Source: Siphonodentalium dalli (lineage: Eukaryota > Mollusca > Scaphopoda > Gadilida > Siphonodentaliidae). Taken from it: a stretch of 64,000 bases of DNA. The stretch lies in NCBI GenBank assembly GCA_032622095.1, contig CP136065.1, forward strand, positions 36,490,732 through 36,554,731, read 5' to 3'. The translations under genes were made by a program, and so were the position numbers. Below, piece after piece: positions 38,071 through 55,876 of this stretch (the first letter of the stretch is position 1; each line of letters begins with the position of its first letter). Under the pieces are notes generated by a model. It made no database searches, was not told the origin of the DNA, and saw only the letters and a program-made list of their open reading frames with translations.

Positions 38071-39326
38071 CATTTGAGTTAAATAATACAGTTTTAGAAT
38101 AAGGAATAAGCAATAGAATTCACATTCGTCATATACGTTGAGTAAAATCTGAAAACTGCGGCCATTTCGAAAATGTGGCGGCCATTTTGAATATGTCGAC
38201 CGTTGTGATTGATTTGTTGAGAGAAAACCGAAACCGAAATGTCTTATTTTTAATGAGAATGAACCGTAAAAAATCATTCCTGAACCATCACAGACCTGCA
38301 ATAGAATGACTTCCGACGTAGAAGTTCCTACACAGTGGTTAGCCTAATAAAAGTTAAAACACTGCCTTAATATTGATAATTGTTTGAATTCTTGAGCCAC
38401 TACATGTATCAAAGACACCTCTTAATTTGATACGAAATGATGCTATTTGGACTGGATCCAAGCTACCAAACCATATGATGGAGTACAATGTTACATTCAT
38501 TAGTTCAATTGAATCTATTTTGAAAACATACAGGTAAATATGTACCGTTTGTGCACATCCGATGTGTTGACCCGTTCGTCTGTACAATTATACGGTACAC
38601 GTACAACACGTGGATAGTGCAAATTTGTTGTGCCGCTGAATTTAGGTTCAATCAACGAGTTATCTGTTTACGTTTGGATGATCAATACGCCATCCAGAGT
38701 ATATACCGCGAGGCTGGTCTGGTCCATGAAGTGATGGAGCAGATATGCTTAAAATTGTACTCGCTATATTGCGTACTGGTTAGACATTTTGCAGGATGTA
38801 TATATTCGCAGATGTATTTTCGCGGATGTCTCATGGTTGCAGTATGTTACTGTTATAACCACGTTAATTGCTTTCTATAATTAGTTAGGTGTGAACAATG
38901 GCTGGGCCATTCTTGAAGATTTTATTGCGGCAGCACAATGCGTTATATAACAACTAACATTGTTGATGAAGTATATCTCAGTTGGAATGTACACTAAATG
39001 TCGTATTGCGAAGTATCGGGGATGTATTTGTATTTAATCCGATTAGTATATCTCTGGTCCGTATTTAGAGGCTTTCTGGTGTGGTGAATGAGAAACCTGC
39101 AGTAATAAGCCGTATTGTCGTTGTAATAATTTGAAGAATTAGTTATTTCAACGAAATTTCAAGGTTCATGAAACCAATATATTTTACATTATATACATGC
39201 GTATATAATAATACGACCTGGATGGCGTTACCAGTTCTGACCATGCATGGTTTTCTTGTTCTCATTTGTTACGAACAAAGATTCTTGTGACGACGGTTGC
39301 AATACAGTGGTCTCAAAATTTGTCTC

Positions 39327-39641
39327 GGGACCCTCGGTGGCTCAATCGGTTAGGGGTAAAACTCCAAGCCGTTTCGCCTTCCAGCGCTGACGATAAGGGT
39401 TCAAATCCACATGTTTTCATCGTGGACTTTGTAACTCGAAATCGTTATCTGGTGAAGTTGCCAGTTACTTGCCGATGGTCGGTGGTTTGCCGCACATGGT
39501 CGACGAGTTTATCAGCCATTGAAATCACTGTTAGATTAGCCCTAAGTGTGCGGATTTCCTCCACAACTAAAACTGGCAATGTCGTGATATGGCCTTAGTG
39601 GCTAAAGCGACATAAAACCCCAAGCAATCAATCAATCAATC
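39327..39641 (+). mobile_element. tRNA-derived SINE with 12-bp target-site duplication
   Basis: The head has a pol III A box (TGGCTCAATCGG, 39338-39349) and B box (GGTTCAAATCC, 39398-39408). The body includes GGATTTCCTCCACAACTAAA then ACTGGC, a motif shared by widespread invertebrate SINE 3' domains. The tail is GACATAAAACCCCAAGCAATC then (AATC)n. A perfect duplication AAAATTTGTCTC flanks it at 39315-39326 and 39642-39653. It lies 177 bp upstream of exon 5, in sense orientation. Confidence 0.93.
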
Positions 39642-39830
39642 AAAATTTGTCTCCGAGCCGACTTGACCAAACAACAGCTTCGAGCAGGGGGTGGAGTTTT
39701 GCATCCACGCGTATGTCTCACTACAACTACACAGTGTTTTATAGAGAGTAATTTGTCATGTATTTCCCAGAACACAGCAGCCAATTTGTCAGCGCGTGAA
39801 CATACCCTTACATATCATATTATGTTTCAG

Positions 39831-40381
39831 CACAACAGGTCAGGATTTCCCAGGGTTACATAGCAACATAGTAAAGCTATTGAACCCGGGTGGAGACTTG
39901 CTGTATGCTTGGCCGTCAGTTCTAGAGAGCTTCTGCAAACTCGACGTTCAATATTTTCCATTCGATACACAAATATGTGAGTCAGTGTTCGGATCCTGGG
40001 TCTACAACGGAGGTTCAGTAGACTTCTACCCAAAAAGTACGACGAATGTAGAGGTGAATAGTGAATTTTTTAAGAAGCACTCAGCATGGGAACTTGAGAA
40101 ATACGACGCCGAGCGGCACGCTTTGGTGTATCCGTGTTGTCCCGATCCGTTCGTGGACGTCACGTATTACATACATCTTCGTCGGAAGCCGCTTCAGTTT
40201 GTGATGACGTTAATTATACCGTGTATTCTGATAAGCGCCATGACATTGCTCGGCTTTTTGTTACGGGTTGAGTCAGGGGAGAAGATATCTCTCCAGGTGA
40301 CAGTGATACTCTCTCTCACAGTGTTCCTGATGCTGATAACTGAAAAGCTTCCGCCTTCATCCGACGCAATACCGCTTCTAG
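39831..40381 (+). CDS. nAChR gene 2, exon 5 (Cys-loop, loops B and C, M1, M2)
   Basis: A 551-nt exon between TTATGTTTCAG and GTAAGT (phase 2 in, phase 1 out). It encodes the Cys-loop CKLDVQYFPFDTQIC (13 residues between the Cys), loop B GSWVYNGGSVDF with its Trp, and loop C ALVYPCCPDPFVDVTY with the vicinal CC of alpha subunits. M1 follows (LQFVMTLIIPCILISAMTLL), then SGEKISLQVTVILSLTVFLM as the M2 pore helix, then ITEKLPPSSDAIPLL. The second conserved loop C Tyr, two residues after CCPD, is Phe here. The mature start of the frame is set by the splice acceptor, not by an ATG. The donor lies 4 bp from a transposon insertion. Confidence 0.96.
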
Positions 40382-41681
40382 GTAAGTACACTGAAAAAAC
40401 AAGTGTTTAATTTCTACACACAAAGCTAAACACTTGTTTGTCCCACTTTATAAACACATTATCATGTGTGCATGCTAAACAAGTTGTTTATAACCTAAAC
40501 GAGGTGTTCAAGTAAGCTATACACATGCATGTGTTTAGATAAATAAACACCTAGGTGTTTAAGTAATTAAACACATCACATGTTTAGATAATAAACGAGG
40601 TGTTTAGGTAGAGTAAACACCACTGTATGTTTATTAAATAAATGGATCCAGGTGTATATGGCTTGTCCCACTTTATAAACACAACCAGGTGTTTAGTTCC
40701 TATACATGTTTATTCACTTGTAATCATCAGTGAATATGAAGTCACACATAAACTGTAAAACATAATATGCATAGAGCTCATACATATTTCAATTGAATAT
40801 AATTCAGATAATATACGAAGGATATAACATAGTACTGAAATTCAGCATCATAATTTAACATGTTAGTATGTTTTTGTGAGTAAAATGGAGAAAAGAACCA
40901 CCAAATGCCAAAATTGAAACTATAACTCGCATGTTGATTGCAAAAAATACATGTCACATAATTTAGTTATTAAATTGTTATTACGCCATAAAATTAATAC
41001 CTAGATTATCATATTTTCTTGGGAAATTAGAGCGTGGGGAATGGGGATTTGATTTTTTTTTATTATTTATTTTCTGTGCACCATTCTGCCAGAGACAAAG
41101 AAAAGTCCCTCTCTATACAAATAAAGTACACATTGTACCATGCACGGACTAGTAATGCACACAATGTGACATGCATACCAGTATAGTGTAACAGTTGTAA
41201 GAATGTTAAATTCATTAATTTTCAAAATATCTCAATTTCAAACTATAAATTTGAAGGGAAAATCATTATCCTATATAGCTAATGTATGCTATAGCACTAT
41301 AACAACACATGTTCACACTTACAGATTCACAACATGATAGATATGTTCTAATTGTCTAAACATAAGTCATTTAAAACAAAATAAAAACTTTTTTTGAGGT
41401 GGGTCGATGGAGTTTGACAGGAAATATTTGCAAAAAAAAACAAACACACTACATCATTATCTAGCTTATGGACCCAGCTATATGGTCGCACTCAGTGTAC
41501 CAATTATGCACATAATAATGACCATCATAACTTCCTGGTCGGTAATAACGTTTGAATATGGTAGAACACAATCACACAATTTCACCAGCCAGAGGAATAC
41601 TTCAATGGGTGTGAATTATGGGGCTTTGAGAATACTCGCGACATCGAGGCTGTCCATCTCAAATTATGTATGCTCCTAACG

Positions 41682-42338
41682 AACATGAAAATGAGCACTC
41701 CAAATTATATGGTTTATCGTGAGCTAGGAAGATGGCCATTGCGGGTTGAAATTGACAAAAGATTGACCTGATTTTGGAGCCGCCTAATGACGAAAAAAGG
41801 TAGTCAGTCCTTCATATTGTACAAGTTAATTTTAGCTATGAAAGGCGATGGCAAAAGAATACGATACCTTGATCACATGAAAGACAATTTTGTGCGTGCG
41901 GATTGTGAAGACAACTGGAAAACACAGTTACCCGTTTCGAATTCTAAACTCCAATGTATGCACAAAAAGCTACTTGACAATGTTTTCATTCAGTGGAATA
42001 GTGAAGTATCTCAATCGTCACAAGGAGAATTCTATCGTAACTTGAAAAAATGTCCTTCACTTATTCGTTTTTATGTTGAATGTCCTTTTAATTCAATTAT
42101 CTCGCTACAGAGAATTCGTACCTCAAATCATAGATTATGTGTTGAGACTATGAAGTGGACAAAATCTAAGAACCAAAAGAAAGGGGTGTCAACAATTGGC
42201 TCCTGTCAGTTATGTGGCACCACCATGTGCGATGAATATCATTTTGTAATATTTTGTCCAAAATTACGTGAATGCCGGATGAAATATATTGACGAATCGA
42301 TCTGGAAAAATCCATCGCGAGAGTATTTTTATGGTTAA
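41682..42338 (+). pseudogene. LINE 3' fragment (C-terminal domain after reverse transcriptase)
   Basis: The frame reads STPNYMVYRELGRWPLRVEI, one in-frame TGA (41769-41771), then FWSRLMTKKGSQSFILYKLI and on to about 42338. The end has C-x2-C-x6-YHF-x4-CPKLREC (SCQLCGTTMCDEYHFVIFCP), a zinc-knuckle-like pattern found at the C-terminus of many non-LTR retrotransposon proteins. The MVYRELGRWPL motif is also typical. No reverse transcriptase core precedes it, so it is a truncated relic. It sits inside the TA-flanked element at 40389-43587. Confidence 0.75.
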
Positions 42339-43059
42339 TTAAATTCTTATGAAACAATGAAGCTCAAAAAACTTTAAAACTTTATAAAAATCGGATTGAA
42401 GCAATTTAATTAACTATTCAAATATTTGGCGAGCGTGGTGTGTATATATGTCTGCTTCTGTATGTGTGAACATACAGACATACATATATATATATGAAAA
42501 TCACGTCGTATTTTATTCATTCGTAGTACAACTATGCATATTATGTTGCTATTTTTATGGTTTCTACATGTTTTAGACAAGTAAGTTTCATAAGGAATAA
42601 CGAATGTGCCAATATATGTGTATGCGTGTATGTGTGAGTGTGTTAACCCATCTCTGTGAGGAGTCAGGAATTACACGAAGGTACATTCATAGATTCTGTA
42701 CTAAAATTTATGAAGTCAGGATTTTGTCTCAAATTTTTAACATGGAAACCCTATGGGAGAAGAAAAAAAATCCACTTTACCTCCCTCTTAATGTCTAACG
42801 ACGAATGCAACATTATTGAGTGTCCCCGGTTCCATTTCGCCAAATTCGTTTGAAGAGGTGACATTTGATTCGCTTCTATGTGGTCAGCCGGAATGTAAAC
42901 AATGGCACGAAGAAAGGAAAGGCCGTAAAATGTTACGCAATTTCGGATTAGTAATAGCTCCCATAAAATGGTACTATTAATGGGCAAATTTATATGGGAT
43001 ATCTTTCTCGGCATTGACTCGGTTGAATAGATTCCTGTTTTAAAATAAATATAGTATTT

Positions 43060-43262
43060 ACCTGTTGTGAAATCCAGACCGCAGACTATGTCCTCGTCTC
43101 CAGGAATCCAGGTCTTCGATAGATTATTGTTACAAACACTTCGAATTTCATTAATCCACATTTTGTTTTCCGCGTTTCCGTCTTTGGCGTTCGATGATAT
43201 GAGACTTTCACCTCCGGGTCATATCGATTTGCACAATCGCTGACTCCACAAGACAGGCATGT
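43060..43262 (-). pseudogene. THAP-like zinc-finger remnant
   Basis: On the - strand one frame gives CGVSDCANRYDPEVKVSYHR then TPK. After a frameshift, another gives MWINEIRS, WIPGDEDIV and CGLDFTTGK. This follows the THAP C2CH layout: C-x4-C near the start, a W-containing helix, then C-x2-H-F. The final His is replaced by Asp. A possible donor (GTAAAT) follows directly. THAP domains occur in DNA-transposon proteins and in host proteins derived from them. The frameshift and lost His suggest it is dead. Confidence 0.5.
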
Positions 43263-43589
43263 TTGATGTTGTTAAAACAATTAGCACTGCTAACTCTACT
43301 GTGTAAACAAAGAGACTCGCTTTGGTTTGCCAAAGTAACACGTGCTGTGTGACGTCAGACCTAAACACCACGTCTGGTCGACATACTTATATATTAAACT
43401 ATAAACATGTGATCTGCCCTGATAGTTGCATACACATTAGTAACTAAACACCATATACCTAAACATATTGCAATACACATCTACACACAAAACCTAAACG
43501 ATATGTTTACTATCTATACGCGGTGTATAGAAAATAAACACCTACACGCAAACTTAAACATGTCAATCCGACTCTGTTTTTTCAGTGTA

Positions 43590-45350
43590 CCGCTCCATGT
43601 TAAGGATGTCATATGCCCATCATTTAATGAGGATTTCTGTTCTAAATATCCAGAAGAAAATTTACAAGATTTACAACTGTTTCCACCGCTTTCAGCGTGC
43701 TACTTTGTATTGGAATTAATGAGGTGGTCGCCTTAGAATAGCTACATTGTAAATATTGTTACTAATGATATGCCTGGTGTAGTTACCGAATGACCAAAGT
43801 TTGCATTTATGATCAAAGAAGTTTTTCAGTAGGCAGCGCTATCGGGCATAACTTAGGTATTGTACTAAATCAGATTACATATCATTGTGGACTGGGTATA
43901 TTGTGTATATACATGCATGTGTGGACAATTTTGTGTTTTAGCGCATGTTTGGCCTTTGACTCGCTTAACCACATACGGGCATCTGATGTTATTAATTACA
44001 CACACAAAAAACCTATGCGGTCACCGAACTAAACTACAAATACAATGCCATCTCAATACATTGAATGAGACTACGGCGATTGCATACTTATATATTTATA
44101 AATTATTTGCGGATAAACTAAAGTATTTAGAGTAACATAAAATAATCTCCCCAATTGTTTGTATGGGATCTATTCTCATACTACTTCGACACTGGTATTC
44201 CGTTTTCCTCAATGACGATGTAACAAAGGTTGCGAGCAGCCATCATATTGTACATGCTTGCAGTGAGGTGGAACATCCCGCTGCGGAGATGTGGAGAACG
44301 AATTAGTTATGCTCATGATGTGTCAATCCAAATCAGCAGCACGCAACGTTATTATTATATTAATTATATGCAGCGACTCTTATTTTGGCAATAATTGCCG
44401 TTTGTTTATATGCGACAAGGTCGCCTCTTGTACGTCTCTTGTACATACTTGCAATTTGTTGACAGATTAGACATGATTCTTTACCGAATTATTATTATCA
44501 TTAAACTCCACCATAATAAGTGTTCACATCTGTTATGCCGTCGCTGTGGTACGTGTTTATGCAGCCAAGCGTGCATGGGAAATAAGTGTTGCCACACGTA
44601 GATTGCTATTATCATTATTCTATCTTAACTACAGTATAATTAATGTTTCTCGTTGGTGGAATCAATTCCGTTCAGAGGCAATCACCGCGCGAACATAACA
44701 TATTCCGACCTTGCACATTCGTTTAGAATTTACCACTGTGAAACTGAATTGACATCGACTTCGTGGTTGACGAACTTCTATAGGCCAGGCTGACCTCAGA
44801 TTATTGTTCAACGATTGACATTATTCTTCCTTTGTTGAACTCAGTGCATGACATGCATTTTTTAGACAATGATACACACAATACCTGCGGTCTGAGGCAT
44901 CAATTAGTCCAGACACATTAGTGGAAACTAATGGGAAAACAATACCACTGAAGAGCTTTATTCTGAATTTTTTGGCGAATATATTTAGAACAATATACTA
45001 AAAGTCCCCAAGAATCCGATGTGAACATTTTATACTATAGCAATTTCCCCAAGGGGGCATATATCAGTGAAATAAAACATATGCATATTGGCCGGATAGT
45101 GTTAACATTGTCGCTGTTTACCACAGTAAAATTTGTTGCCGAATCTAAATTTAACTGACAGCTGTTTCACAAGACTGGCGAGAGATAAAAATATGCATCA
45201 ATATATGTGGCGTACCACATGGAATACAAGTTATTTTTGCAGCTGAATTATATGACATTTATAGGTAATTTGATTAAAAGCGGATTGAATGTTGGTCACA
45301 TCTACCAATTCTTCCATTCCAGAAAGTCCATATTCTTTGGCAGACAGAAA
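43590..45350 (+). other. Intron 5 of gene 2, single-copy part
   Basis: This lies between the TA-flanked element and the start of duplicated sequence. I see only short frames and no repeats of note. The homologous part of gene 1 would lie left of the window. Confidence 0.6.
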
Positions 45351-55706: not shown

Positions 55707-55876
55707 CTTTTTACTTCACATTCACCCTCGTCTTGATTGCGGCTTCTTGTTTAATGACCGTCGTCGTCATCAGCTTACATTTCAAGTCCGCAACCAGAGT
55801 ACCCGGGTGGGCAAGAACCTACTTGATTGATATTGTCGGGTCAGTCTTGTTCGTAAAAGTTCCAGTTGTGAACCAG
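55707..55876 (+). CDS. nAChR gene 2, exon 6 (M3 and MX helix)
   Basis: A 170-nt exon between GTTTCAG and GTATGT. It is phase 1 in and phase 0 out, matching exon 5 and exon 7. It encodes M3 (FYFTFTLVLIAASCLMTVVV), then SLHFK, and the start of the M3-M4 loop with VPGWARTYLIDIVG and LFVKVP. It is the ortholog in position of 7741-7910. The intron before it is 15.3 kb, filled by the TA-flanked element and the 7.9-kb repeat block. Confidence 0.93.

Follow-up and report, generated by a model that had tools for sequence, protein, structure and literature searches.

The window analysed here is a stretch of 64,000 nucleotides from the scaphopod mollusc Siphonodentalium dalli (GenBank assembly GCA_032622095.1, contig CP136065.1, positions 36,490,732 to 36,554,731 of the forward strand). 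The second receptor gene of the window, hereafter the window gene, carries a DNA transposon in intron 5, directly behind the 5' splice site of exon 5 (Table 1). The translated exon 5 matches the Pfam families PF02931 (Neur_chan_LBD, 2.4e-23) and PF02932 (Neur_chan_memb, 9.1e-17), and its best match in the PDB is the alpha-7 nicotinic acetylcholine receptor (2.6e-43). Both domains of a nicotinic acetylcholine receptor-like protein were thus found, as read on exon 5. The phase-1 junction of exon 5 with exon 6 (G/CT; here and below a slash marks a boundary) stays in frame and reads LLAFYF, and a similar exon 6 is present in the first receptor gene of the window. Large clustered expansions of nicotinic-type receptor genes have been described in molluscs (PMC6896357). 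A search of the source genome with exon 5 and its donor returned 12 places, ten of them clustered on C5 within ~0.47 Mb (36183531-36648667) and two, nearly identical to each other, on C3 (242402680-242689594). Exon 5 is open at all 12 places, the window included, and the element is missing from all 11 of the others (11/11).

The insert begins 7 bp past the exon 5 boundary and has a TA duplication, as the original prediction, made from the letters of the window, had stated; this TA overlaps intron positions +6/+7. Its ends are CACTG and CAGTG, and its terminal inverted repeats are perfect over 13 bp within the element and over 16 bp when the flanking GTA/TAC is included. The exact 13-mer occurs at two places in the window, which are the two termini of the element; with up to 2 mismatches it occurs at 6 places, against 3.95 expected. 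Next to the repeats lie dense arrays of TAAACA-type motifs. Counted on both strands, TAAACA occurs 16 times in the left 332 bp, 3 times in the middle 2620 bp and 7 times in the right 248 bp, and of all 300-bp stretches in the window, the ten richest in this motif overlap the ends of the element. Seven open reading frames of the window copy were scanned against Pfam; no transposase was among their matches, which included two weak ones, below cut-off, to other families.

Table 1. Positions of the window gene's features and of the inserted element (position 1 is the first letter of the window)
Feature	Position	Strand	Basis or remark
Exon 5 of the window gene, nicotinic acetylcholine receptor-like (codes for the last part of the ligand-binding domain, M1 and M2)	39831..40381	+	Pfam and PDB matches
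First 7 bases of intron 5, GTAAGTA, 5' splice site	40382..40388	+	donors of 12 members aligned
Left copy of TA target duplication, intron +6/+7	40387..40388	.	
Inserted DNA transposon, 3,199 bp, CACTG...CAGTG	40389..43587	+	ends of family copies coincide, or nearly so, with these positions
Left terminal inverted repeat, CACTGAAAAAACA	40389..40401	+	
Left subterminal array, TAAACA/TGTTTA-type motifs	40402..40720	+	16 TAAACA, both strands, in 40389-40720
Middle segment (1,184 bp) unmatched in other copies	41606..42789	+	compared with the corresponding part of 8 copies
Right subterminal region, same TAAACA-type motifs	43341..43574	+	7 TAAACA, both strands, in 43341-43588
Acceptor-like sequence TCTGTTTTTTCAG, followed by TG, at the 3' end of the element	43573..43585	+	textbook weight matrix
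Right terminal inverted repeat, plus strand TGTTTTTTCAGTG	43575..43587	-	
Right copy of TA target duplication	43588..43589	.	followed by CCGCTCC
Exon 6 (M3 region)	55707..55876	+	intron 5 natively ends at its acceptor

Searches for relatives of the element covered the whole source genome (2.23 Gb, 9 contigs). With the left end as query, 33 of the 40 other main alignment rows begin at query positions 84-90, where the element starts at 90 (best 40 of 61 candidates scored). With the right end, 36 of 38 other main rows end at 253-266, where the element ends at 258 (best 40 of 46). Excluded from these counts were the row of the window itself, the foot rows holding a second piece of another row (12 on the left, 9 on the right) and, for the right end, the row of the empty site. 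CACTG or a near variant stands at the ends of most other fetched copies. The genome contains 9 exact matches to the 20-base right end with TA, compared to 0 for the reversed control, which gives a lower bound on the number of copies. A scan of viral contigs with the terminal pattern found 0. The insert in the window is certainly a real mobile element and belongs to a family dispersed in the genome.

The flanks of the family were read at 33 fetched loci and in the window. Copies sharing a flank entered the count a single time (24 reduced to 20 on the left, 19 to 17 on the right); L048, a copy of L037 with its register off by one, was discarded, and L002-L008, which are shorter cuts of L010-L016, were not recounted. 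Among the fetched copies, TA ends 16 of the 20 distinct left flanks and starts 13 of the 17 distinct right flanks; it stands on both sides in six of the eight two-ended copies, including the window copy. No base beyond TA is constant in the flanks of the other copies, and the target duplication is therefore TA. A 4-bp duplication of GTAC, with ends ACTG...CAGT, was also considered; it fits the window copy alone and is ruled out by the other copies.

Two upstream neighbours of the window gene on the same contig show what an unoccupied site looks like. The original prediction had pointed to the exon 5 donor of gene 1 as a place to look for the empty site, and gene 1 (C5:36479479) lacks the element and reads GTAGGTACCGGCCC. 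Gene 0 (C5:36445484) is likewise empty and reads GTAGGTAACGCTCC. Both differ from the window gene at +4, and gene 0 also at -2 and +8. For the window gene itself, the predicted empty site is GTAAGTACCGCTCC, and the window now reads GTAAGTA/CCGCTCC across the removed element. Most paralogues differ from this reconstruction at +4, as discussed below.

The insertion point lies between +7 and +8 of intron 5. The U1-binding site from -3 to +8 (TAG/GTAAGTAC; whole stretch TAGGTAAGTAC) is identical before insertion, as reconstructed, and after it, because the first base of the element, C, equals the displaced +8 base. The first base altered by the insertion is +9. With a textbook U1 sequence, the computed duplex energy is -11.9 kcal/mol both before and after insertion; gene 1 gives -11.6 and gene 0 gives -10.4. 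The statement of the original prediction that the donor survived the insertion intact is supported.

Divergence gives an indication of the time of the insertion. At the termini, 12 of 330 and 7 of 216 sites of the window copy (3.5%) depart from the base carried by most of the family; the 24 left and 19 right rows used for this included L042, a short copy, as well as copies that share a flank. The flanking intron of the window gene diverges by 11.6% from gene 0 and by 20.9% from gene 1, the latter value perhaps inflated by alignment error. Since the terminal divergence is so much lower than that of the flanks, the insertion seems to be later than the split of the window gene from its neighbours. 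Exon 5 of the window gene is under purifying selection: the ratio of nonsynonymous to synonymous substitution rates (dN/dS) is 0.17 in the comparison with gene 0 and 0.24 in that with gene 1; these values are pairwise and pool the time before and after the insertion.

Collectively, these results suggest that a CACTA/EnSpm-like, non-autonomous cut-and-paste transposon that duplicates TA entered intron 5 at the TA of +6/+7, in one member of a clustered nicotinic-receptor-like family and after that member had split from its neighbours. The entry point lies directly 3' of the stretch bound by U1, so that the 5' splice site is as it was in the reconstructed empty site, and exon 5 should still join exon 6 across an intron that now measures 15.3 kb. 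We consider it very probable that this was an ordinary insertion just past the donor, with the 5' splice site unchanged and the exon 5-exon 6 joining as predicted. With eleven empty relatives in one genome, the locus cleanly illustrates how short a distance to a 5' splice site suffices for an insertion to spare it. The event is of a known kind and leaves the general understanding of such insertions unchanged.

The assignment of the element to a class draws on its ends and its duplication. The wider CMC clade is described as having CA..TG ends and target duplications of 2 to 5 bp (PMC12730594), and the soybean Tgmt* element as having 13-bp repeats together with subterminal repeats (PMC2613891). 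The window element resembles these CACTA/EnSpm (CMC) elements in its CACTG...CAGTG ends, which belong to the CACTA/CACTG kind and carry CACTGAAAAAACA at both termini, in its 13-bp repeats and in the subterminal motifs repeated at both ends (PMC12730594, PMC2613891). Its TA duplication falls within the 2-5 bp given for CMC (PMC12730594), unlike the 3-bp duplication stated for CACTA elements (PMC4158355), which is the length in plant elements. EnSpm-like fungal elements with TA duplications are also on record, and PMC12730594 leaves undecided whether they stand inside or outside CMC. Duplication of a TA target is shared, too, with the TA-specific Tc1/mariner elements. The CACTA transposase family PF02992 has 78 matches in the genome; three of these 78 loci were fetched, and none showed a transposase between such ends in a crude search that allowed no more than 1 mismatch and looked for 12-base repeats starting CACT over 6.5-7 kb. 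The ends, repeats, motif arrays and 2-bp duplication thus fit CMC but such ends were not seen at the three PF02992 loci, and we regard the element as non-autonomous and CACTA-like, with membership in CMC likely but not proven. As a separate observation, many of the 78 PF02992 places are CACTA-type transposase loci with long open frames, and ten of them share both their score and a frame length of 909 amino acids, which suggests the recent spread of another CACTA family.

Several points weigh against an uneventful insertion behind an unchanged donor. Position +4 of the donor differs from that of most relatives: among the 11 empty members the donor is GTAGGT in eight, GTACGT in two and GTAAGT in one (L050), so that over all 12 members +4 is G in 8/12, C in 2/12 and A in 2/12 (the window gene and L050). 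The insertion gives no explanation for this difference; the A, which is the consensus base, is shared by the empty L050 and owes nothing to the element. The empty allele of the window gene is itself a reconstruction, and the identity of -3 to +8 depends on it. An empty allele reading GTAAGTACCG would place the A at +4 before the insertion, and one reading GTAGGTACCG would place it after or with the insertion. TA is missing at 4 of the 20 left flanks (L013, L021, L023 and L024) and at 4 of the 17 right flanks (L035, L041, L045 and L047), although on our own reading the left end of L024 would show TA if its alignment were shifted. No transposase is tied to the family by the PF02992 comparison given above. 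Finally, the normal splicing of exon 5 is a prediction from sequence, and the acceptor-like 3' end of the element could cause mis-splicing.

This last point deserves attention, as it is a possible danger that the original prediction missed. Read outwards, the inverted repeat ends TTTTTTCAG/TG. Scored with a simple weight matrix of textbook values, the acceptor-like site TCTGTTTTTTCAG ranks 11th among 2952 plus-strand AG sites, compared to rank 136 for the exon 6 acceptor and rank 203 for the exon 5 acceptor. Because the right terminus outscores both native acceptors, harm, if there is any, would come from the 3' end of the element. CACTA insertions of the dSpm/Tgm type are spliced from host messages through an acceptor at their terminus. 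The inverted repeat in the window, read outwards, similarly ends in a pyrimidine tract and AG; unlike those insertions, the window element sits in a pre-existing intron and its acceptor is a candidate.

If exon 5 were joined across the boundary 43585/43586, 44 codons and a stop would be appended after M2, and either the receptor would be truncated at that point or its message would be unstable, with the gene partly silenced. The short distance speaks for such a disturbance, as the site lies 3.2 kb from the donor compared to 15.3 kb for exon 6, as do its rank and the early stop in the appended frame. However, a high matrix score does not prove that a site is used, and ten plus-strand AG sites score higher still. 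The coding exon is intact and under purifying selection in the pairwise comparisons, in which time before and after the insertion is mixed, and the earliest GTRNGT donor able to close a new internal exon lies only at 44430 (scan of 43587-44600). We therefore judge disturbed splicing to be improbable, while noting that the terminal acceptor-like sequence is a concrete target to look for in transcripts. That the element supplies an alternative receptor 3' end that is actually used, cut after M2, with the A at +4 retained to hold donor use against the new neighbour, is very unlikely; if true, an animal receptor family would be using the terminal inverted repeat of a transposon as a regulatory splice site. 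A twin-intron reading, in which splicing to the terminal acceptor remakes a donor (compare PMC12403724), was rejected, the sequence CTAG/TGTACC offering just a weak GTGTAC by eye.

Introns of human and mouse show a depletion of full-length elements in the vicinity of exons, in so-called U-zones, and human SINEs (short interspersed nuclear elements), LINEs (long interspersed nuclear elements) and long terminal repeat elements close to exons are associated with chimeric transcripts more often than others are (PMC3088655). The window insertion is comparable in that it adjoins a splice site, a location depleted of insertions in those two species, but differs in lying 7 bp from the donor, in its length of 3.2 kb and in standing beside an intact exon.

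The account given by the original prediction was that a gene-disabling insertion inside the splice donor had been rescued, the target duplication having rebuilt the donor consensus. The duplicated TA does overlap +6/+7, and the choice of TA could have mattered. Without the element, intron 5 would have 12,124 bases with 1007 TA dinucleotides, two of them within +1 to +8, and a hypothetical insertion at the other of these, +2/+3, would have left a computed U1 pairing of -5.5 instead of -11.9 kcal/mol. This is the sole exception: counting the donor alone, 1006 of the 1007 possible TA targets keep it intact. As only 1 in 1007 would have spoiled the donor, target choice neutralised nothing. Neither was the consensus regenerated, since -3 to +8 is the same before and after; the 5' copy of the target duplication is the original flank and nothing more, and the 5' flank survives in full whenever an insertion duplicates its target. 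The element is also not inside the donor, whose U1-pairing bases all lie upstream of the first changed base. The supposed rescue is mere geometry of target duplication, and we hold it to be very unlikely. The observation on which it was built is confirmed, and its interpretation is partly supported. If a TA of the intron were hit at random, the one at +6/+7 would be struck once in 1007 insertions, but this example was singled out post hoc in a repeat-rich genome. Another TA lies 11 bases 5' of exon 6, and an insertion there could affect the acceptor.

That the element is an introner, which made intron 5 or is spliced out as a separate intron, is scarcely credible: its acceptor-like 3' end beside a donor supplied by the target is as described for some introner families (PMC9860276; introners are also treated in PMC7789003 and PMC3296678), but all 11 element-free relatives have a GTRNGT or GTACGT donor at the matching place, which refutes the creation of intron 5 by the element since the intron is older and common to them, and 12.1 kb of intron 5 continue 3' of the element.

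The interior of the window copy differs from that of its relatives. At the position of the middle segment, the 8 copies compared carry other sequence, 0.9-1.5 kb long in five copies and 2.3-5.8 kb long in three, and the segment therefore looks like a replacement. It holds an open frame of 188 amino acids (41772-42338) with a CxxC...H...C pattern, which we take to recall the tail of a LINE reverse transcriptase; the frame has no Pfam match. A nested LINE insertion was rejected as a simple origin of the segment, given the other sequence in the 8 copies.

The introns around exon 5 differ between the window gene and its neighbours in two further respects. Intron 4 of the window gene contains a tRNA-like element, by our own reading a SINE, at ~39327-39674. 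It is missing in both upstream neighbours, the alignments breaking at 39307/39675 for gene 0 and at 39326/39696 for gene 1, which points to a second insertion after the gene duplication. In intron 5, a stretch of ~42 bases (44336-44377) has a single match in the window gene, and it is repeated in tandem at a spacing of ~35 bases in intron 5 of both neighbours (C5 ~36446116-36446705 and 36480046-36480872).

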